Shown one piece after another: positions 5,257 through 32,536 of a stretch of 38,132 nt of DNA. The position numbers were made by a program, and so were the translations under genes. Below the pieces are notes generated by a model that worked only from the letters and a program-made list of their open reading frames with translations, had not been told where the DNA came from and made no database searches. Position 1 is the stretch's first letter. The number at the start of each line of letters is the position of its first letter. Source of the DNA: Paenibacillaceae bacterium (GTDB lineage Bacteria; Bacillota; Clostridia; Lachnospirales; Lachnospiraceae); contig SVDS01000034.1 in the NCBI GenBank assembly GCA_015057715.1, positions 1 to 38,132 on the forward strand, given 5' to 3'.

Positions 5257-6744
5257 GTAATCTTTATTTTTCAGTATGATATCATGAGCTCCGCCTTCCC
5301 GAATACTCATGGGAGAAACAAGGGTGATCCTTGCTTTTTTCTGAAATTCCTCAATGGAAGCCGCCCCGCAGCTGGACATTGTGGACTTTATCTTACTGAT
5401 CGTGACAGATAAATTATCCTTTAGTGCACCTGCATAAGGAACATAACTGTCAACACCTTCTTCAAAATGAGTATCTTTACTGGCTGACATGCTGTAGCGC
5501 TGCCAGTTCTTTGCACGGTCTGACCCTTCTCCCCAATATTCCTTTACATATTCATTGCCTCGTTTCAGCTTCTTTCCCGGGCTTTCATCAAACCTTGCAA
5601 AATATCTTCCCATCATTACAAAATCCGCTCCCATGGCCAGGGCTATGGCAATGTGATTGTCGTACACAATTCCTCCGTCGGAACAAATGGGGATGTAAAT
5701 ACCGGTCTCCTCCATATATTGATCCCTGGCAGAAGCAACTTCCAGTATGGCAGTCGCCTGACCCCTGCCAATCCCCTTCTGCTCACGTGTAATACAAATA
5801 GACCCGCCGCCAATGCCAACCTTTACAAAATCTGCCCCTGCATCTGCCAGATAACGGAAGCCTTCGGCATCAACCACGTTGCCGGCACCAATATATGCCT
5901 TGGGGAAATTTGACTTTATGTAGGTAATGGCATCATATTGCCAGGTGGAATAACCATCGGAAGAATCCAGGCACAAGATGTCAGCGCCTGCTTCCAGCAG
6001 TGCCGGAACCCGGTCCTGATAATCGTAAGTATTAATTCCCGCACCTACAAGAAGGCTCTTCTTCTCATCAAGAAGCTCAAAAGGATTCTCTTTATGAGCT
6101 TCGTAATCCTTACGGAACACCATATTGACCAGCTGCTGTTTTTCATTGACGATAGGAAGACAATTTAATTTATTTGCCCAAATCAGGTCATTGGCTTCAT
6201 TAAGGGAAATCCCATCCCTCCCTGTAATAAGCACTTCAAAAGGAGTCATAATATCACAGACTTTTTTATCCAGGGCATCCCTGCTTATTCTATAATCTCT
6301 GCTTGTAATAATCCCGGTAAGAATACCGTCCGATTTTCCGTTAGAAGTAACCGCTATGGTAGTATGCCCGGTATCCTCCTTCAGCCTCAGTATCTCATTC
6401 AAAGTGTGTTCCGGCGAAAGATAGGAATCACATACAACAAAGCCGGACTTGAATTTTTTGACTTTCCGTATCATTTCAGCCTGTGAATCAATCGTCTGGG
6501 CCCCATATATAAATGACAGCCCTCCGCACCGGGCCAGTGAAATAGCAAGTTTGTTATCCGACACTGCCTGCATAATGGCAGATACAAACGGAATGTTTAA
6601 CCTTACATGTGCCTCCCCTGCTCTAAATCTTGTAATAGGAGTGGTCAGATCAATTTTTTCAGGCATGCACTGGGGCGTGGATAAATTAGGGATCAGCAGA
6701 TATTCGTTAAAGGTTCTGGAAATTTCATTATATAGTTTAAACAT
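5254..6744 (-). CDS. guaB: IMP dehydrogenase with CBS pair
   Basis: A 496-residue IMP dehydrogenase, which oxidises IMP to XMP with NAD+, the committed step of GMP synthesis. The barrel is interrupted by two CBS domains (about 103-220). The active-site loop [12 protein letters not shown] puts the nucleophile at Cys317; the mobile flap has the Arg416-Tyr417 dyad in [18 protein letters not shown] and a C-terminal EGGAHD monovalent-cation motif follow. These differ from the common bacterial form (GPGSICTTR) and look very like Tritrichomonas foetus IMPDH as I remember it, with Cys and Arg-Tyr offset by two residues. The start at 6744 has AGAGG at 7 nt. It follows the HAD gene by 25 bp and ends in a strong terminator, so it is the last gene of the U32-HAD-guaB block. 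A second ordinary guaB elsewhere cannot be excluded. Confidence 0.93.
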
Positions 6745-6769
6745 TTGAGACCTCTTTTCCTTTTGCTGC

Positions 6770-7405
6770 TTAAACGATGCTTTTCAATTCGCCGAAATTA
6801 TTGATGATAAAAGTTGGGTTTTGCGCTTTCAACTCTTCATAAGAATTGTTTCCATAGGTTACACCACAGGTGTGACAGCCTGCGCCACGTCCCATCTGAA
6901 GGTCAAATACTGTATCCCCTACCACCAATGCCTCTTCCGGTTCACATTTTTCCTGCTCCAATATTAATTGTGCCATGTCTGGAGCCGGCTTTTTGTTTTT
7001 TACATCCTGTTCGCCGTAGATGCGGGAAATGAAAGGACTTACCTGCAAATGATCAAGCAACAGATGAAGAGCGTCCTTGCCCTTACTTGAAGCAACTGTA
7101 ATAACAACTCCCTTTTGTGACAGGTACTCTATGGTGCTCTTTACATCAGGAAACAATGTAACACTTTCCATGCAGATATCCTGGTATTTTCTACGATATA
7201 AATCAATGGCATGATCCATCTCGCTGTCTGGGACTTTTAGTACGGAGGAAAAGGTATCCTTAAGCGGCAGCCCTATTTTTTCCTGTATGTCCTTCTCCCT
7301 GGCAATTCCATAGCCCAGTTCTTTTCCCGTGGCCTGAATTGTGTTTACAATGCTGCTCTTTGTATCTGCTATTGTTCCATCAAAATCTAATATTAAAAGC
7401 TTCAT
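6770..7405 (-). CDS. HAD-superfamily phosphatase (Gph/PpaX-like)
   Basis: A 211-residue haloacid-dehalogenase hydrolase. Motif I is [12 protein letters not shown] with nucleophile Asp and acid/base Asp, followed by a helical cap (about 15-80), motif [13 protein letters not shown] (Ser), a Lys in KNKKPAPD (motif III) and motif [14 protein letters not shown]. These are the marks of phosphoglycolate phosphatase or pyrophosphatase PpaX-like enzymes; the substrate cannot be assigned. The start at 7405 has GAGGG 8 nt upstream and gives the expected N-terminus; the longer frame to 7477 overlaps the preceding gene and is rejected. Lying in the block with guaB, a nucleotide or sugar phosphate substrate is possible but not shown. 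Confidence 0.85.
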
Positions 7406-7467
7406 GTTCCATACCCTCACATCCCTATAATAAATTACATTAATATTATCGTTTCTTTCGTTCTTTT

Positions 7468-8274
7468 TCAATGCCATAGATCATAATCAATTACCTGGAT
7501 CTCTTCCAATTCATTATTAAGCAGATGTCTTAGATTATTTTCTGGAAGTTCCTTCTCCACACCAATCTCTCCCAGCTTATAAGAAATGTTTTCATCAAAC
7601 TGGTCCACCAGATCCTGCTTTCTGAAATACCGTCGGTTTTCTTCTATATACTCTTTTAAATGGCATTTTACAGAATCATTATAATATCCGTAGATCATGT
7701 TATTGAACTGCTCATGCACGATCTGATTATCTGAAATCAGGCGGTCCAGCTCAACCATAAGCCCAATACTTCCGAATGTGCGTCTCATTTCTTCAAATTC
7801 TTGTTTGTGAAGATGATTCTGAGATACGACAACATAAGAAATATTTCCGGTATTGTTTAAAACATCAAAAAATATTTTACTGTGTGCATGATTAATTTCC
7901 AGCTGGGATGAAACAATCACACGAATATCTTTGCTGTATTCATTGCAAAGCAGTTCAATAATATAAGGATTTGATACCAGAATATATTTAAATCCGGTGT
8001 CAATCATGGATTCAATATCTTTGCAAATCTCCTGATACCCCTCTACAGTAAATTCTCTGTTTTCAAAATGAAACATATCATAGGCATAACATAACTGATG
8101 CCTGCCGCTTATGCTCCTGGCTTCCTCCGGCGAGATTGCATAATCCCTCACTTCATGAAACAAAAAACAATCTTTCTGGAAATCCTGCTCAAATCTGGTC
8201 AAATAAATTCTGCCCTCTGACTCAGAGTCCATAAAGCTCTCATCCAAGTATAATGGTAGTAACATTTCACCCAT
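7468..8274 (-). CDS. U32-peptidase-like protein, short, without Cys cluster
   Basis: A 268-residue protein that resembles the barrel of U32 family proteins: the strand YILVSNPYIIELL and the stretch DIRVIVSSQLEINHAH parallel the NPYLIRYT and LKISASVNLK stretches of the neighbour 8289-9458. It lacks the C-terminal cysteine cluster found there and is about 120 residues shorter. U32 proteins of the UbiU/UbiV type work as two-protein complexes that hydroxylate quinone precursors without oxygen, and others modify tRNA; by analogy this could be the partner subunit of the neighbour. It starts 14 bp after that gene, and G-rich AAGGGGG precedes the ATG by about 9-10 nt. Start could also be four codons later. 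Function not known. Confidence 0.6.
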   Translation of the reverse strand: MGEMLLPLYLDESFMDSESEGRIYLTRFEQDFQKDCFLFHEVRDYAISPEEARSISGRHQLCYAYDMFHFENREFTVEGYQEICKDIESMIDTGFKYILVSNPYIIELLCNEYSKDIRVIVSSQLEINHAHSKIFFDVLNNTGNISYVVVSQNHLHKQEFEEMRRTFGSIGLMVELDRLISDNQIVHEQFNNMIYGYYNDSVKCHLKEYIEENRRYFRKQDLVDQFDENISYKLGEIGVEKELPENNLRHLLNNELEEIQVIDYDLWH

Positions 8275-8288
8275 TGGTACCTGCCCCC

Positions 8289-9458
8289 TTACTTATATTC
8301 TATACGCTGCACCTCACCAAGATTTAACTCTTTGATATACGGTAATTTTGTAATTCTGCTCTGCCACCTCCTGTTATTTTCAATATACTGTTCTCTCTTA
8401 TCCTCCGGATAAATCAGGCCCATATCAGCGGCATGGCGGCATAATGTGCAGTGCGTGCAATTGTCCGTGTGATCGGCAGAATACCAGAATTTATTGTCCA
8501 CATGAGATATTTCAGGTATCAGTTCCAGCTGGTCTCTTGGATAGAGAGCCTGCTCCAAAGGGCCATCGGAGACAGCAGCATGAATATTTGATTTTGAGCC
8601 ATAGGTGCCTAAAATTTCTTCCAGATGGGAAGTCCGGCTTTGCTCAATATATATTTGGATGGATTTCATGATCCATTCTGTTGTCGCCAGGCGGTCCAGC
8701 AATTTGAAATTTTTATAACCAATTTCCATGTATTTGGGTATATCAGCCGGAGCAATCCATTTTCCACTATAGATTTCCTCTGGCCTTAAATTTCGGATAT
8801 TAACACATTTATTTCTGTAATAGCTGAAGTATGGTGTTTTTGCTTCCTTGTGTTTGCTATGGGAACCCTGCATGCGCGTATGACCTTTTTGCCAGGGGCA
8901 ATTTGATATGTACAAATCATTTGGAATGAGCTTTAATAAAATATCAGTTTTCGAACGAATTCTGATCAGCTCTGCAAAATTCTTAATTAAATCATAATGC
9001 AGTGTTGCTTCATCAATGCCCAATTGGATCAGATATTCAAGTTCTTCCCATGAACGGGTTTTTAAATTCACTGAGGCTGATATTTTTAAAGCCGGCAGTT
9101 TCTGTTTTGTATATCTGATTAGATATGGATTGCTCAATGTAACCTTTCGTATCCCCAAATCAACTAATTTGTTAATAAATTTCAGATACCGTTCCTGGTA
9201 TTTTTCGGTAAACTCCTCATTCATCAGGCCGTTATTATTGATGACATAGTTAAATTCGATACCGGCGGCGTTTAGCTTGTCCAGAATTGCTTTCAATTCA
9301 TTTTCCTGTTTCACAATATTTTTAGTCTGGGCCCGTCCCCCGCCAAAATCATCAATTCCTAAATTACCAAAATAGCTTTCAATATAATTCCCGTACTTAT
9401 AAAGCGATTGATCAATGAAATCCATATCTCCATTGTATGGTAGTGCAAATTTTATCAT
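8289..9458 (-). CDS. U32 family peptidase-like protein with five conserved-type cysteines
   Basis: A 389-residue U32-type protein, first gene of the block that runs to guaB. The N-terminal TIM-barrel half carries VTLSNPYLIRYT and ALKISASVNLKTR. Cysteines lie at 187 (NCPW), 218 (NKC), and 334, 337 and 340 (CTHCTLC). UbiU/UbiV and RlhA/TrhP, members of this superfamily, bind a [4Fe-4S] cluster through four cysteines, so an Fe-S cluster is likely here. Peptidase activity is doubtful for the family. The start at 9458 has AGGGGGG about 5 nt upstream. The promoter region carries a TGTGA...TCACA dyad (9537-9561) and faces a Crp/Fnr gene, suggesting activation by that regulator. What substrate is modified is unknown. 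Confidence 0.75.
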   Translation of the reverse strand: MIKFALPYNGDMDFIDQSLYKYGNYIESYFGNLGIDDFGGGRAQTKNIVKQENELKAILDKLNAAGIEFNYVINNNGLMNEEFTEKYQERYLKFINKLVDLGIRKVTLSNPYLIRYTKQKLPALKISASVNLKTRSWEELEYLIQLGIDEATLHYDLIKNFAELIRIRSKTDILLKLIPNDLYISNCPWQKGHTRMQGSHSKHKEAKTPYFSYYRNKCVNIRNLRPEEIYSGKWIAPADIPKYMEIGYKNFKLLDRLATTEWIMKSIQIYIEQSRTSHLEEILGTYGSKSNIHAAVSDGPLEQALYPRDQLELIPEISHVDNKFWYSADHTDNCTHCTLCRHAADMGLIYPEDKREQYIENNRRWQSRITKLPYIKELNLGEVQRIEYK

Positions 9459-28522: not shown

Positions 28523-28631
28523 CGCATACCTCCTAATGGAGCCAACAGCAATAAACTGGTTGGCGTTGCTTTTGATTAAGAGTATAGCACAAAAAAATCA
28601 AACATCATAGCCCGGTCATATTACACGCCAA

Positions 28632-28663
28632 ACAGACCGCTGCATTACGATGCAGCGGTCTGG
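28632..28663 (-). terminator. Terminator after fliC
   Basis: CAGACCGCTGCAT pairs perfectly with ATGCAGCGGTCTG around a four-base loop. The T tract that follows on the minus strand is short (TTTGG), but the stem is very stable and lies about 27 nt after the fliC stop. Confidence 0.85.
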
Positions 28664-28689
28664 TAAATAATACTGACGTTTTACAATTA

Positions 28690-30843
28690 TTACTTTAATA
28701 ACTGCAGAACGCCCTGTGGAACCTGGTTTGCCTGTGCCAGCATGGACTGAGATGCCTGAACCAGGATGTTGTTCTTGGTATAAGCCATCATTTCTTTTGC
28801 CATATCAACATCACGTACACGGCTTTCAGCAGCTGACATATTTTCACTTGTTACATTTAAGTTGTTAATTGTATGATCTAATCGGTTTTGAATTGCGCCT
28901 AGGTCACCACGGGTAGAGGAAACGGAATTGATTGCATTTTTTATAACTGCAATTGCTGCAGTTGCCCCAGAATCAGTACTGATATCAACACCTTCAATTC
29001 CCAGTGATTTTGCACTGGTTGAAGAAATTTTAACTGACATTCTGTTAAAGTTATCTGCTGTATCACCAATTTGAAGAGTAAGACCTGCTCCTTGTGCAGA
29101 TGCTGACTTTGTTAAATTAGATTCATTCAGTTTTACTGCGGCACCTTGCGCACTTGCTCCGGTAACTCCATCCTCAGTAAGCTTATCAGCAAGTTTTGAT
29201 GCCAGTTCTTCACTTGTGTCACTTGCAGAGTATACAATCTTCGTATCACCCTCAGCTACTTCTTCGTCAGCCTTATTGACAAAGGTATAATTCTTTCCGT
29301 TAACGGAAATACTGGTACCGTTTGCCATCTTGGAAGCATCAAAGGTTGCCAGTGTTCCATTTCCTGTGTCAGCACTTGCAGAGACAAGAGTAAGCTGTTT
29401 TGCTGTAGCTATTCCTGTTGCATTAGTTGCGTCTTTTGATGCATCATCTCTTATAACAGCGCCTCTTGATGTAGACTCTGAAATTGTAATTTTACCGCCC
29501 GACGCAGAAGATGCAACATAACCTCCGTTGTTATTTGTTCCACTTTCTTCTGCGGTTATTGCAGCTGCCAGTTTGTCAGCTACTGCATCCGCATTGTCGC
29601 TGTCATTGACAGTTACGGTTGTATATTTAGCTCTTTCTGATGAATCTGTTGGCAACCCCTTTAATTCAGCATTGCTGCTCTGGATAACATATGTTCTGTC
29701 GCCTACCGTAACAGCTCTGTTATGTGCTGACTTACCTGCATTTGAACTGTCTAAGTCTAAAGTCAGTTCTTTACTTGCTACCTGATAAGAAGCTGATAAT
29801 CCTTTAATATAATCAGTTTCCTTTCCTGCCAGTTTGCCATACCCAATTGGGTTTTCAGTTGTTCCATTATATTTCTCTTTTAATGTTGCAGTAGCCGTAG
29901 CTATATCAGCTGCATCAATATCACTTACATCTACAGAGACATCACCTAACTTAGAACCATCTACAATGTCTCCAGTACCAGCTGCAGACTTATCTGCTTT
30001 GGCTGTAATTGTAATGATATTTCCATCAGCGGATACGTCATAGAGATCAGTAAACTTACCAGCTTCACCGGCTCCTGCAAATGCTGTACCAGAATCGGTT
30101 ACTGCCGATATATTACCGGATGCACCTCCAGCAAATGCATCAGCAATGTTATCAGTAGTAATACCCTTACCAGCAGCAATTTCAATTTTAACCGTCTGAT
30201 CCGCGCCAGTATTGTCCTTATAATTAAATACAAGATTTTTTGCTGCACTATTCGTATTTGTAATATTTCCTACATATAGTTTCGCTGAATAATCAACTGC
30301 TGTTGTTGCTGCTTCTTTTTTACCAGAGGTTACCTTATCAAATGCCCCAAGAGCCTTAGTAGTTTCGGCCGGGTTTGTCTTAACAGTAATTGCGGCAGTT
30401 GTAATGGCTTTTGTCTGGTTAACTGAACCATCCAACAAGTTGATACCGTTGAAATTCGTACTATCTGAAATACGATTAATTTCTGCCTTCAAAGAAGTAA
30501 CTTCCTTCTGAAGGTTTTCCCTGTCTACGTTATCCTGATAAGTAGCATTTGCAGACTGATCAGCAAGTTCCACCATACGGTTCAGCATAGAATGAACTTC
30601 TGTTAAAGCACCTTCTGCTGTCTGTACCAGTGAGATACCGTCATTCGCATTTTTCTGAGCTGTCTCAAGACCTGTGATCTGCGCTCTCATCTTTTCAGAA
30701 ATAGCTAGACCGGCAGCATCATCACCTGCGCGGTTAATACGATATCCAGAGGATAATTTCTCCAGGTTCTTTGATACCGTATTGTTGTTGTTTCCTAACT
30801 GCCTGTAGGCATTTAATGCTGCAATATTGTGTTGAATTCTCAT
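28690..30843 (-). CDS. fliC: Flagellin with a large variable central domain
   Basis: A 717-residue flagellin, the filament subunit, exported unfolded through the flagellar type III channel. The N-terminal D0/D1 helices start [16 protein letters not shown] and reach about residue 145 ([52 protein letters not shown]). The C-terminal part (about 615-717) has the matching coiled coil and ends [14 protein letters not shown]. The 450 residues between are Thr/Ala/Asp/Gly-rich, with repeated Flagellin_IN-like units of the form D-A-V-A-D-K-L-A, and form the solvent-exposed variable D2/D3 region, longer than in Bacillus. The sequence [11 protein letters not shown] keeps the Arg and Glu-Leu of the TLR5 contact. 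GGAGG lies 9 nt upstream. Control is predicted through CsrA (30851-30885) and an invertible promoter (31226-31430). Confidence 0.97.
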
Positions 30844-30850
30844 ATGTATT

Positions 30851-30885
30851 ACCTCCTTGAATTATGACAGGGACTTCCATTTCCC
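30851..30885 (-). promoter_or_regulatory. Predicted CsrA-binding leader of fliC
   Basis: On the minus strand GGGA-N8-TCCC (30870-30885) forms a short hairpin whose loop, AATGGAAG, shows GGA, the core of CsrA targets. The Shine-Dalgarno sequence CAAGGAGG (30852-30859) holds a second GGA. Two such sites, one on the ribosome binding site, match the logic of the Bacillus hag leader. A further CCTC/GAGG stem lies near 30920-30935. Confidence 0.7.
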
Positions 30886-30962
30886 TCATGTTACTTTTGT
30901 TTTTTATTTCTAACTTTCCCTCGGGCCCTTGAGGAAAAAGCTGAAAGCGTAGTAAACTGTTT

Positions 30963-31166
30963 TTACCAACGTAAGTGCCTTTCCCTAAGTTTTTTCAAAC
31001 ATTGGGGAATTGGGTGACCTTTTTCATAAATCTCTCCTCTTACAATGGAAATATCTTTTGGAGCATCAATGGCAAGTCTTAAATCTCCTTCCACGGACAC
31101 CACCTGAATTACTATGTTTCCATTGATTACGAGATACTCTCCTGGATTCCTTCCTAACGATAACAT
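30963..31166 (-). CDS. csrA: Carbon storage regulator CsrA
   Basis: A 67-residue RNA-binding protein, starting MLSLGRNPGEYLVINGNIVI and with APKDISIVRGEIYEK, where the Arg in IVRGE corresponds to the RNA-contacting Arg44. The dimer binds GGA hairpins and blocks translation of flagellin; FliW, its usual antagonist, is not in this window. The chain deviates from the commoner MLVLTRK start. The start at 31166 is used because GGAGG is 8 nt upstream; an in-frame GTG at 31175 is part of that site. It lies 119 bp upstream of fliC in the same direction, and both are downstream of the candidate invertible promoter. Confidence 0.92.
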   Translation of the reverse strand: MLSLGRNPGEYLVINGNIVIQVVSVEGDLRLAIDAPKDISIVRGEIYEKGHPIPQCLKKLRERHLRW

Positions 31167-31225
31167 TCGCGTCACCTCCTTGTTTTTACGAAGCCTGCAT
31201 TACTATTTTTACAACCAATTGGCAT

Positions 31226-31253
31226 ATATTCCCAGAATGTGTATTACAACAAC
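31226..31253. repeat. Left inverted repeat of candidate invertible element
   Basis: This 28-nt stretch matches the reverse complement of 31403-31430 at 23 of 28 positions. Shared pieces are TTCCCA, the unbroken core AATGTGTATTA and a final AAC. It lies 59 bp upstream of the csrA start. The non-palindromic GTGT core has opposite direction in the two sites, so recombination would invert the DNA between. Confidence 0.75.
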
Positions 31254-31402
31254 CTGTTTTTATCTATTTTTCTTATATTTTATGTAACTTCTAGTTTTTT
31301 TAAAAAAATCCTTATTATAATTTTTCTTTAGCCGATATACATTTTAGTGAGTAATTCACGCGTATTTAAAGGATATAATCAACTTTTGCCTGCGCAGTAT
31401 AT
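31254..31402. mobile_element. Candidate 149-bp invertible segment with sigma-D -10 box
   Basis: A/T-rich DNA between the two inverted repeats, without a gene. It holds an exact GCCGATAT (31331-31338, plus strand), the -10 consensus of flagellar sigma-D/sigma-28; its -35 box is poor (TTAT at 31312-31315 with N15). In this orientation it reads toward the terminator at 31483. After inversion it would read toward csrA-fliC with a leader of about 145 nt. TATAAT-like sequences also occur in both directions (31374-31379 plus strand). Confidence 0.65.
31331..31338 (+). promoter_or_regulatory. Sigma-D/sigma-28 -10 box, pointing away from csrA-fliC
   Basis: GCCGATAT, eight of eight to the Bacillus consensus TAAA-N15-GCCGATAT. 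The -35 position has only two of four bases. It is the only such box seen near fliC, and none lies between csrA and fliC. Confidence 0.55.
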
Positions 31403-31430
31403 GTTCCTATAATACACATTATGGGAACAT
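31403..31430. repeat. Right inverted repeat of candidate invertible element
   Basis: Partner of 31226-31253. This copy is itself a near-perfect palindrome from 31401 to 31430: ATGTTCC and GGGAACAT flank a core, giving two 11-bp arms around an 8-bp centre, ATACACAT. This arm-core-arm layout is that of tyrosine recombinase core sites such as dif. Confidence 0.75.
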
Positions 31431-31482
31431 GCAAAATTACACCTGTTTTAATCAATGGTGCCCGGTAAAGGTCAATATAAAT

Positions 31483-31536
31483 CAAAAAAAGAGCCTAAAC
31501 CTGTCTGTTTTCAGACGAGTTAAGGCTCTTTTTCGT
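31483..31536. terminator. Bidirectional terminator between recombinase and invertible segment
   Basis: AGAGCCT pairs with AGGCTCT, AAC with GTT, and GTCTG with CAGAC around a four-base loop. It is followed by seven T residues on the minus strand and five on the plus strand. It ends the recombinase transcript and would also stop a plus-strand transcript leaving the invertible segment. Confidence 0.92.
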
Positions 31537-31564
31537 TTGTCTTTTTTCTAATTAAATGGTTCTT

Positions 31565-32398
31565 TCACCATGTAACAATTTTATCAATCAGGCTCTGCTG
31601 CTCCGTAGCCGTCCTTCTTAAATAAATCCTTGTGGTCTCAATACTTTCATGCCCCATAAGGTCAGCAAGAAATGATATGTCGTTGTATTTTTCCAGAAAA
31701 TTCTTTGCGTATCTATGGCGAAAGGAGTGAGGATAGACCACATCAGGGTCAAGTCCGTATTTTATAGCATATCGTTTTAACTGCTGACCAACTCCCCGGG
31801 TTGAAATCCGTTCCCCGTAGCGGTTTTTAAATAAGTAACCACTGGTTATCTGATTTTGATCCATCCATATCTTCGCTTCCCTTTTCAGCTTTTCGGGAAT
31901 GTAGACTCTGCGAAGCTTTCCTCCTTTGGAATAGAGGTCCAGATATCCAAGTTCAACATGCTCTGCCTTGATCTGTACGAGTTCACTGACTCTGGCGCCG
32001 GTTGCGGCCAGGAACCATACGACAAAATACCATTCCATGTTTCCATCCTGCTTTAATTTCTTTTTTAAATATTGATAGTCTGCATTACTAATTACATTTT
32101 CAAGGAAATTTTTCTGCTGTATCTTAACATTTTTTAGCTGCAGCGGCTGCTGCTCTTTATAATAGAGATATTTATTCATGGCCTGAACCTTTAAATTTAC
32201 GGTTTTGGGTTTATAGCTTTCCATGAGATAGCCTTTATAGGCCAATAAATTATCTTTGCTGATATCATTATATTGGGTGAAATAAGACTTTACTGCAGAT
32301 ATATAAGTTATGATTGTACTCTCAGATAAATTTTCCCTGCGAAGATATGATTCAAACTGCATTTGTGCCTGCGTTCTTTCCCGCAACTGTGCCTCCAT
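31565..32398 (-). CDS. Tyrosine recombinase (XerC/D-like), candidate inversion enzyme
   Basis: A 277-residue recombinase. An N-terminal SAM-like core-binding domain (about 12-95) precedes the catalytic domain, which has Arg136 (ATGARVSEL), Lys158 (YSKGGK), His224-x-x-Arg227 (HSFRHRY), His250 (LMGHESIETT) and the nucleophile Tyr259 (RIYL). All active-site residues are present. GGAGG lies 7 nt upstream of the start. It is too short and too isolated for a phage integrase, has no excisionase, and no tRNA target is near. The pair of inverted core-like sites 135-340 bp downstream suggests a promoter invertase, as known for flagellar and other switches in Clostridia. A housekeeping Xer role is less likely because of the N-terminal differences and location. 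Confidence 0.88.
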   Translation of the reverse strand: MEAQLRERTQAQMQFESYLRRENLSESTIITYISAVKSYFTQYNDISKDNLLAYKGYLMESYKPKTVNLKVQAMNKYLYYKEQQPLQLKNVKIQQKNFLENVISNADYQYLKKKLKQDGNMEWYFVVWFLAATGARVSELVQIKAEHVELGYLDLYSKGGKLRRVYIPEKLKREAKIWMDQNQITSGYLFKNRYGERISTRGVGQQLKRYAIKYGLDPDVVYPHSFRHRYAKNFLEKYNDISFLADLMGHESIETTRIYLRRTATEQQSLIDKIVTW

Positions 32399-32536
32399 TT
32401 GCTGTCCTCCGTACGCAAATATTCATGCATATCAATTTTTAATAGGATAATATAAGAATAAACCAACATAGATGAAGGGCATTGCTCCATAGCTTATTAA
32501 TCTGCTATGCTGCAACGCCCCCGCTACCATCATCAA

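Follow-up and report, generated by a model that had tools for sequence, protein, structure and literature searches.

A probable invertible sigma-D promoter with an adjacent tyrosine recombinase upstream of a second csrA-flagellin unit in Lacrimispora

Does the gene-free stretch between a tyrosine recombinase gene and a csrA-fliC unit in a Lacrimispora genome carry a promoter that can be turned round? The question was raised by a first-pass annotation of the window, i.e., the whole stretch of 38,132 nucleotides analyzed here (contig SVDS01000034.1 of assembly GCA_015057715.1; genome G000 in the following), in which the layout of a flagellar phase switch in the OFF state had been recognized. The explanation that accounts best for the comparative sequence data, and that we regard as very likely, is a cassette that combines a recombinase with an invertible sigma-D promoter and with a csrA2-fliC2 unit, for which inversion at this locus, expression of the unit and the targets of CsrA2 are predicted. 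The phase-switch reading proved largely right in view of conserved sites and promoter, matched spacers, a fixed promoter facing the gene in G018, a site type shared with hsdS-linked relatives of the enzyme and opposite orientations in the analogous switch of G647. The csrA-fliC unit and the adjacent recombinase had been correctly recognized, while it had been missed that this is a second csrA-flagellin cassette and that the enzyme is kin to hsdS-linked recombinases. The features are compiled in Table 1.

Table 1. Features of the switch cassette, in positions of the window.
Feature	Position	Strand	Remarks
Whole inserted cassette (recombinase, switch, csrA2, fliC2), approximate	28620..32467	.	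between DUF378 and zinc-ribbon genes
fliC2, flagellin, 717 aa	28690..30843	-	
Predicted hairpin with GGA in loop, fliC2 leader, likely CsrA site	30869..30886	-	
csrA2, divergent CsrA paralogue, 67 aa	30963..31166	-	
csrA-side recombinase site	31226..31253	+	strong outer half ATATTCCCAGAAT, spacer GTGT at 31239-31242, weak inner half ATTACAACAAC; kept in 11/11 copies
Segment predicted to invert, spacer to spacer	31239..31417	.	~180 bp
Sigma-D promoter CTTAT-N15-GCCGATAT	31311..31338	+	points away from csrA (OFF)
Far recombinase site	31401..31430	-	30-nt near-palindrome ATGTTCCCATAAT-GTGT-ATTATAGGAACAT
Hairpin with flanking A and T runs, likely bidirectional terminator	31486..31533	.	between far site and recombinase
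Tyrosine recombinase, 277 aa	31565..32398	-	nests among hsdS-linked recombinases

The inverted repeats had been placed at 31226-31253 and 31403-31430, and these 28-nt arms are 82% (23/28) complementary and 149 nt apart, with no gene between them, the tyrosine recombinase next door and an exact sigma-D -10 box GCCGATAT at 31331-31338, all as described. The arms stand as given; the far site is better drawn as the 30-nt near-palindrome 31401-31430, and one half of the csrA-side site is weak. Within the intergenic region (31176-31564), the top-scoring inverted repeat of 18 nt matches at 17 of 18 positions, which was reached by none of 1000 dinucleotide shuffles (16 matches were reached by 9/1000). 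All Lacrimispora copies (n = 11; ten genomes plus a second copy in G001) have a near-perfect palindrome as far site and a csrA-side site of which the outer half is strong and the inner half weak, at a core-to-core distance of 175-180 nt; the weak inner half counts against the switch reading. The far-site pattern occurs 11 times in the 25 Lacrimispora genomes if up to three mismatches are allowed, only at switches, and the reversed control not at all. Conservation of the repeats in relatives with the recombinase, on which the first-pass annotation had let its reading depend, was found, as sites and promoter are conserved in 11/11 Lacrimispora copies. An ON junction was searched with the far-site pattern in the 25 Lacrimispora genomes (up to three mismatches), which returned the 11 far sites already known and no additional junction, and in viral contigs with the exact pattern, which gave no match; a search of the own genome with the switch region found only the region itself and a reverse match of its hairpin. 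This hairpin has 22-nt arms (86%) and a 4-nt loop and was absent from the output of a terminator scan of the region.

The four central spacer bases are equal between both sites in 11/11 Lacrimispora copies, and spacers other than GTGT have changed at both sites (ATGT in G021, GTAT in G001 copy 2). In 19/19 pairs (11 from Lacrimispora, 5 from genus g82, 3 from G647) both sites have an identical central spacer, yet it differs between loci. As tyrosine recombinases require matching spacers, such matched changes are the trace expected of active exchange. They also bear on the main rival explanation, according to which the switch is locked in Lacrimispora, so that the segment no longer inverts and the promoter, as oriented, serves a short RNA of ~190 nt that extends to the hairpin 31486-31533. 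The terminator-like hairpin after the far site and the single orientation common to 11/11 Lacrimispora copies are what this explanation predicts; against it stand, besides the matched spacer changes, a recombinase that is full-length in 8/10 genomes (9/10 counting G020; broken in G023), the fixed promoter of G018 that faces its flagellin gene and the opposite orientations in the analogous G647 switch, and we consider it unlikely. Comparing the orientation in close genomes, which had been suggested as a check, gave the same OFF state in all 11 Lacrimispora copies, while both orientations were met only between paralogous loci of G647; the tally is 11 OFF in Lacrimispora, 5 OFF in g82 and 2 OFF plus 1 ON in G647, i.e., 18/19 OFF. 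We read this as a strong OFF bias of the switch, which is not only an effect of culture since three of the Lacrimispora records are titled as metagenome-assembled genomes (L040, L045, L049). The preponderance of OFF copies nevertheless speaks against the switch reading, and inversion within Lacrimispora, with 11/11 copies OFF, is a prediction.

The promoter itself had been judged to have a poor -35 box, the weakest point of the earlier reading. This was not borne out, as non-switch flagellin promoters in Lacrimispora are of the same form as CTTAT at 31311-31315 with its 15-nt spacer; 12 of them carry CTTAT at a spacing of 15 nt (4) or 16 nt (8). A promoter scan of flagellin loci matched the CTTAT form in 11/17; no match was obtained for five, including the main flagellins of G020, G004 and G023, and in one the -35 box was missing. 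For the main flagellins of G003 and G017 (L184, L185), without a match in the scan, CTTAA with CTCGATAA was seen by eye. That the box is directed away from the flagellin genes was confirmed, with CTTAT-N15-NNCGATA facing away from csrA2 in 11/11 Lacrimispora copies, and the leader of about 145 nt proposed for the ON state agrees with the predicted 145 nt to the ATG at 31166 (136 nt to 31175). In genomes without the recombinase, DUF378-linked flagellins have a fixed CTTAT promoter facing the gene in four of the five loci scanned (G018, G024, G016 and G011; not G007), a sixth flagellin (G021, C4) having been left out. At the same locus with the same neighbours, G018 encodes a flagellin that is 87% identical over the N-terminus, its promoter is fixed facing the gene, and neither recombinase nor csrA2 nor sites are found there. 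That csrA is served by a sigma-A promoter while the switch is OFF is possible but finds little support: two weak matches (9/12) on the - strand of the segment face csrA, no more than in shuffles, and the region holds 4 sigma-A-like matches compared to 7.0 +/- 3.1 in shuffles.

The switch layout is present in 10/25 Lacrimispora genomes in 11 copies. A recombinase orthologue with at least 76% identity is encoded in 10/25 genomes, csrA2 is found in the same ten, and in G023 both recombinase and fliC2 are broken; at G001 copy 2 the recombinase is absent from the fetched stretch. The ends of the cassette follow from G005, which lacks it and whose flanks match up to 28620 and 32467. Among the 15 genomes without the recombinase, DUF378 runs straight to the zinc-ribbon gene in eight, five have a flagellin gene between the two, in G013 DUF378 is followed by a nitroreductase gene, and in G022 a contig edge lies at the locus. 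The cassette of G021 and G001 copy 2 sit elsewhere than at the DUF378/zinc-ribbon locus. Cassettes look exchanged between lineages, because the flanks of G019 are 96-100% identical to the window and its cassette 75-81%. It might thus be argued that the two sites move or exchange the cassette in the manner of attachment sites instead of inverting a promoter, for which the eight genomes with directly joined neighbours and the apparent exchange in G019 could be cited; since the sites are in inverted orientation to each other and, instead of bounding the cassette, are found within it upstream of csrA2, we regard this as very improbable. The last alternative, that the segment inverts and acts via leader termination as in the C. 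difficile flg switch, not by turning a promoter, has a precedent involving Rho in the excerpts of PMC7446863 considered here and is just as improbable, as 19/19 copies have a sigma-D promoter within the segment and none of the 18 OFF copies has a sigma-D match with 15-nt spacing facing csrA2 (a single sigma-D-like match toward csrA at 14-nt spacing in G019 was taken as chance).

Returning to the cassette with an invertible promoter, the identity of the recombinase and its catalytic residues hold as claimed: it matches PF00589 (E = 4.7e-25), and R136, K158, K161, H224, R227, H250 and Y259, which we take to be the catalytic residues, are invariant in 9/9 aligned orthologues. Among the best 80 of 82 homologues, 8 are from Lacrimispora, and 55 of the other 72, at 57-75% identity, lie in loci with hsdS-like genes, a call that denotes similarity to L047, whose genes are named Methylase_S, HsdM/N6_Mtase and restriction R-type protein by Pfam. 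The flagellar-switch recombinases of Lacrimispora form one clade (support 100) among the hsdS-linked enzymes, and the forks that nest them there have 81-82 in one tree and 84-88 in a second, both trees being quick searches and the first lacking L117 (too short) and rooted on tandem paralogues at 52. In the hsdS loci among the homologues listed, the pattern ATAAY-N4-ATTATRRGAA occurs in 24/55, in nine on both strands, compared to 0/55 for the reversed control, where the pattern was picked post hoc and some sites lie within hsdS coding sequence, which also conserves them. The site arm alone is found in 43/55 hsdS loci versus 16/55 in the control, and an example is ATAATTTGCATTATGAGAA in inverted pairs. 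As hsdS loci carry the same site type, the repeats are tied to the recombinase family. The switches themselves do not lie in type I restriction loci, as no hsdS-, hsdM- or hsdR-like ORF is present in 8/8 Lacrimispora switch loci. A tandem pair of paralogous recombinases with ~55% identity to the switch enzyme is encoded in the same genome (G000:C17:14277-15920) and similarly in other genomes; beside these tandem paralogues no such site pair was found in the seven loci L013-L019. In L115 (4863 and 6062-8815) a distant homologue of the recombinase is accompanied by the same site type near an ORF with Big_2 repeats, perhaps another promoter switch. In the Bacteroides loci L104, L105, L107 and L109 the homologous ORF has only 148 aa in the ATG-based list, perhaps a start-codon artefact, and a neighbour in L104 is glycoside-hydrolase-like.

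Outside the genus, csrA2 (E below 1e-20) was found in one other genome when 299 genomes of the family were sampled, G105 of genus g82. Within g82, 5/6 genomes encode csrA2, each together with a recombinase match of 53-56% identity, which is open in 4/5 and has one stop in G445. In all five the repeats match at 23/25 to 26/26 positions and enclose a promoter CTTAA-N15-ACCGATAW that points away; the sites read TTCCGATAAGAARTATTATCGGAA, and in G446 and G445 the arms are mismatched but the spacer is the same at both ends. G445 has no flagellin match, and its csrA2 runs into other sequence. A TnpB-type ORF (PF07282, possibly TldR) lies downstream of fliC in L255 (G105), L310 (G446) and L311 (G444), with a partial match in G414; TnpB-type ORFs in csrA2 loci with a tyrosine recombinase are a link to the published csrA-tldR systems. 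G647, from another family, has three switch copies (C7, C3, C16) and a recombinase relative of 54% identity, with no recombinase in the stretches fetched for C3 and C16. The promoter of C7, CTAAA-N15-GCCGATAT, points toward csrA2, those of C3 and C16 point away. The inner segment of C7 aligns to the reversed C3 segment with a score of 31 and directly with -25 (shuffles -26 +/- 6.6, best -4), and for the csrA-side flank, which takes in the first 60 nt of csrA2, the score is 36 in direct and -36 in reversed alignment. As the flank is direct and the inner segment reversed, the segment is inverted between these homologous loci; the far-side flanks do not match between copies either way. C3 and C16 are near copies (133/134), and the G647 spacers TCAGAA and ACAGAA differ between loci and match within each. 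That one enzyme family serves all switches was dropped, since the tree sets the g82 and G647 recombinases in a clade of their own (support 95), grouped with one tandem paralogue (97) and outside the hsdS-Lacrimispora group; the G647 switch is therefore an analogue and not an orthologue of that in the window. It appears that tyrosine recombinases from two branches have been joined to the same csrA2-fliC unit. One of the two tandem paralogues groups with the g82/G647 switch enzymes. The csrA2-fliC units L313-L321 of family f17 have no tyrosine recombinase match, and in several a sigma-D-like -10 box faces csrA2. Assigning the f17 csrA2 loci (G486, G581, G658, G587, G593) to the published hin-tldR systems was rejected, as one upstream ORF had no Pfam match and the ORFs after fliC in the two loci tested encode a CxxCxxCC domain.

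The csrA gene of the switch is a second, divergent copy, adjacent to fliC2 on one strand, and its start is best read as the ATG at 31166 behind AAGGAGG, the GTG at 31175 overlapping the Shine-Dalgarno sequence. A more distant CsrA of canonical type is encoded in all 25 Lacrimispora genomes; the canonical csrA lies among flagellar genes and in G000 follows a 148-aa ORF, presumably fliW. Among the matches listed to solved CsrA structures, those of CsrA2 end at residue 45-52, whereas the best match of the canonical G000 protein, to 5dmb chain D, extends through residue 74; 5DMB is CsrA from G. thermodenitrificans with a C-terminal extension according to the excerpts of PMC7829508 considered here. 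The same excerpts name V/I51 and N55 as FliW-contact residues and R44 as critical for RNA binding. With a B. subtilis row as reference for the numbering, CsrA2 retains the arginine aligned to R44, has proline in place of N55 of FliW-responsive CsrA in 11/11 Lacrimispora copies and in six further sequences aligned, and has G, R, C or L at position 51 in Lacrimispora, so that neither V/I51 nor N55 is found. In 9/11 fliC2 leaders a predicted hairpin has a GGA in its loop ~34-36 nt upstream of the start codon (those of G021 and G020 fold otherwise), as have, at ~34-38 nt, 16/16 other Lacrimispora flagellin leaders folded; a further GGA lies within the Shine-Dalgarno sequence of flagellin leaders. 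As both kinds of leaders have a predicted CsrA-type hairpin, CsrA2 may act on both flagellins. Besides FlgL-like matches, a further flagellin is encoded in 8/10 switch genomes. No main flagellin was found in the assemblies of G000 and G019, so that a flagellin swap is not arguable for the very genome of the window.

The 3.8-kb cassette of tyrosine recombinase, invertible sigma-D promoter and csrA2-fliC2 unit probably works as follows. The recombinase would exchange strands within the short spacer of the two inverted sites and flip ~180 bp. In the OFF state, as sequenced, the sigma-D promoter would fire away from csrA2 toward the terminator-like hairpin, and in the ON state it would drive csrA2-fliC2 through the ~145-nt leader. 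CsrA2, without the FliW-contact asparagine, might then repress translation of the main flagellin and tune its own fliC2, and flipping may exchange one flagellin for the other as in the Salmonella Hin/fljBA system. In Salmonella, an invertible promoter precedes a unit that encodes flagellin and, in addition, a post-transcriptional regulator, with a serine recombinase and FljA. Both systems would have an invertible promoter before a unit of flagellin and regulator; there, a serine recombinase and FljA are used, whereas here these are a PF00589 tyrosine recombinase and a CsrA paralogue as putative repressor. A tentative reading, to which we lean slightly less than to its denial, is convergence on Hin/fljBA: two recombinase branches would flip a sigma-D promoter for an alternative flagellin and a FliW-blind CsrA silencing the main flagellin, and paralogous switches (G001, G647) would be kept apart by different, internally matched spacers.

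The closest published system, judged from the excerpts of PMC13418256 (2026) considered here, are the hin-csrA-tldR inversions of Flavonifractor and Oscillibacter, in which an invertible stretch of ~120 bp carries a FliA (sigma-28) promoter upstream of a fliC-linked csrA and RIP-seq showed enrichment of CsrA at the 5' leader of a fliC, for which a stem-loop is predicted. The proposed logic is the same, i.e., inversion of a FliA/sigma-D promoter that precedes such a csrA; however, Hin and TldR are present there, and here a tyrosine recombinase, the Lacrimispora cassette leaving no space for TldR. PsrA of S. pneumoniae is described in part of PMC7096588 as an hsdS invertase, a tyrosine recombinase that acts on short inverted sites. 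Enzyme class and short inverted sites are shared with such hsdS invertases, and the Lacrimispora enzyme nests among hsdS-linked kin and shares their site type, whereas a promoter is served here and specificity genes there (PsrA being compared by description). The flg switch of C. difficile with RecV, in the excerpts of PMC7446863 and PMC5903667 considered here, combines a tyrosine recombinase with flagellar phase variation, as is predicted here; it lies upstream of flgB, in contrast to one csrA-flagellin unit with its own adjacent enzyme here, RecV again being compared by description. No prior description of the Lacrimispora switch was found in the open-licence PMC literature; PMC11892184 has no mention of flagell-, csrA or Lachno-, and PMC5903667 none of csrA or Lachno-.

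If the proposed reading is true, flagellin switching around a csrA-fliC unit has evolved with unrelated recombinase classes, and an enzyme from a restriction-locus family can be put to new use in switching a promoter. Among the immune signals of gut bacteria, flagellin is a major one. As nearly all copies are OFF, assemblies may conceal at what times the second flagellin comes into use.

Two minor observations concern the sites. On the + strand at 31219-31247, across the csrA-side site, TTKACA-17 nt-TATTAC is seen by eye in 10/11 copies (the window has TTGGCA), and inversion would change TATTAC to TATTAT, which is a possible outward promoter. Copies of TTCYNATAA-N6-TTATNRGAA lie at contig ends in G411 (C18:33, C50:140, C69:35) and G328 (C23:100, C23:36987), as if active sites had broken the assembly.
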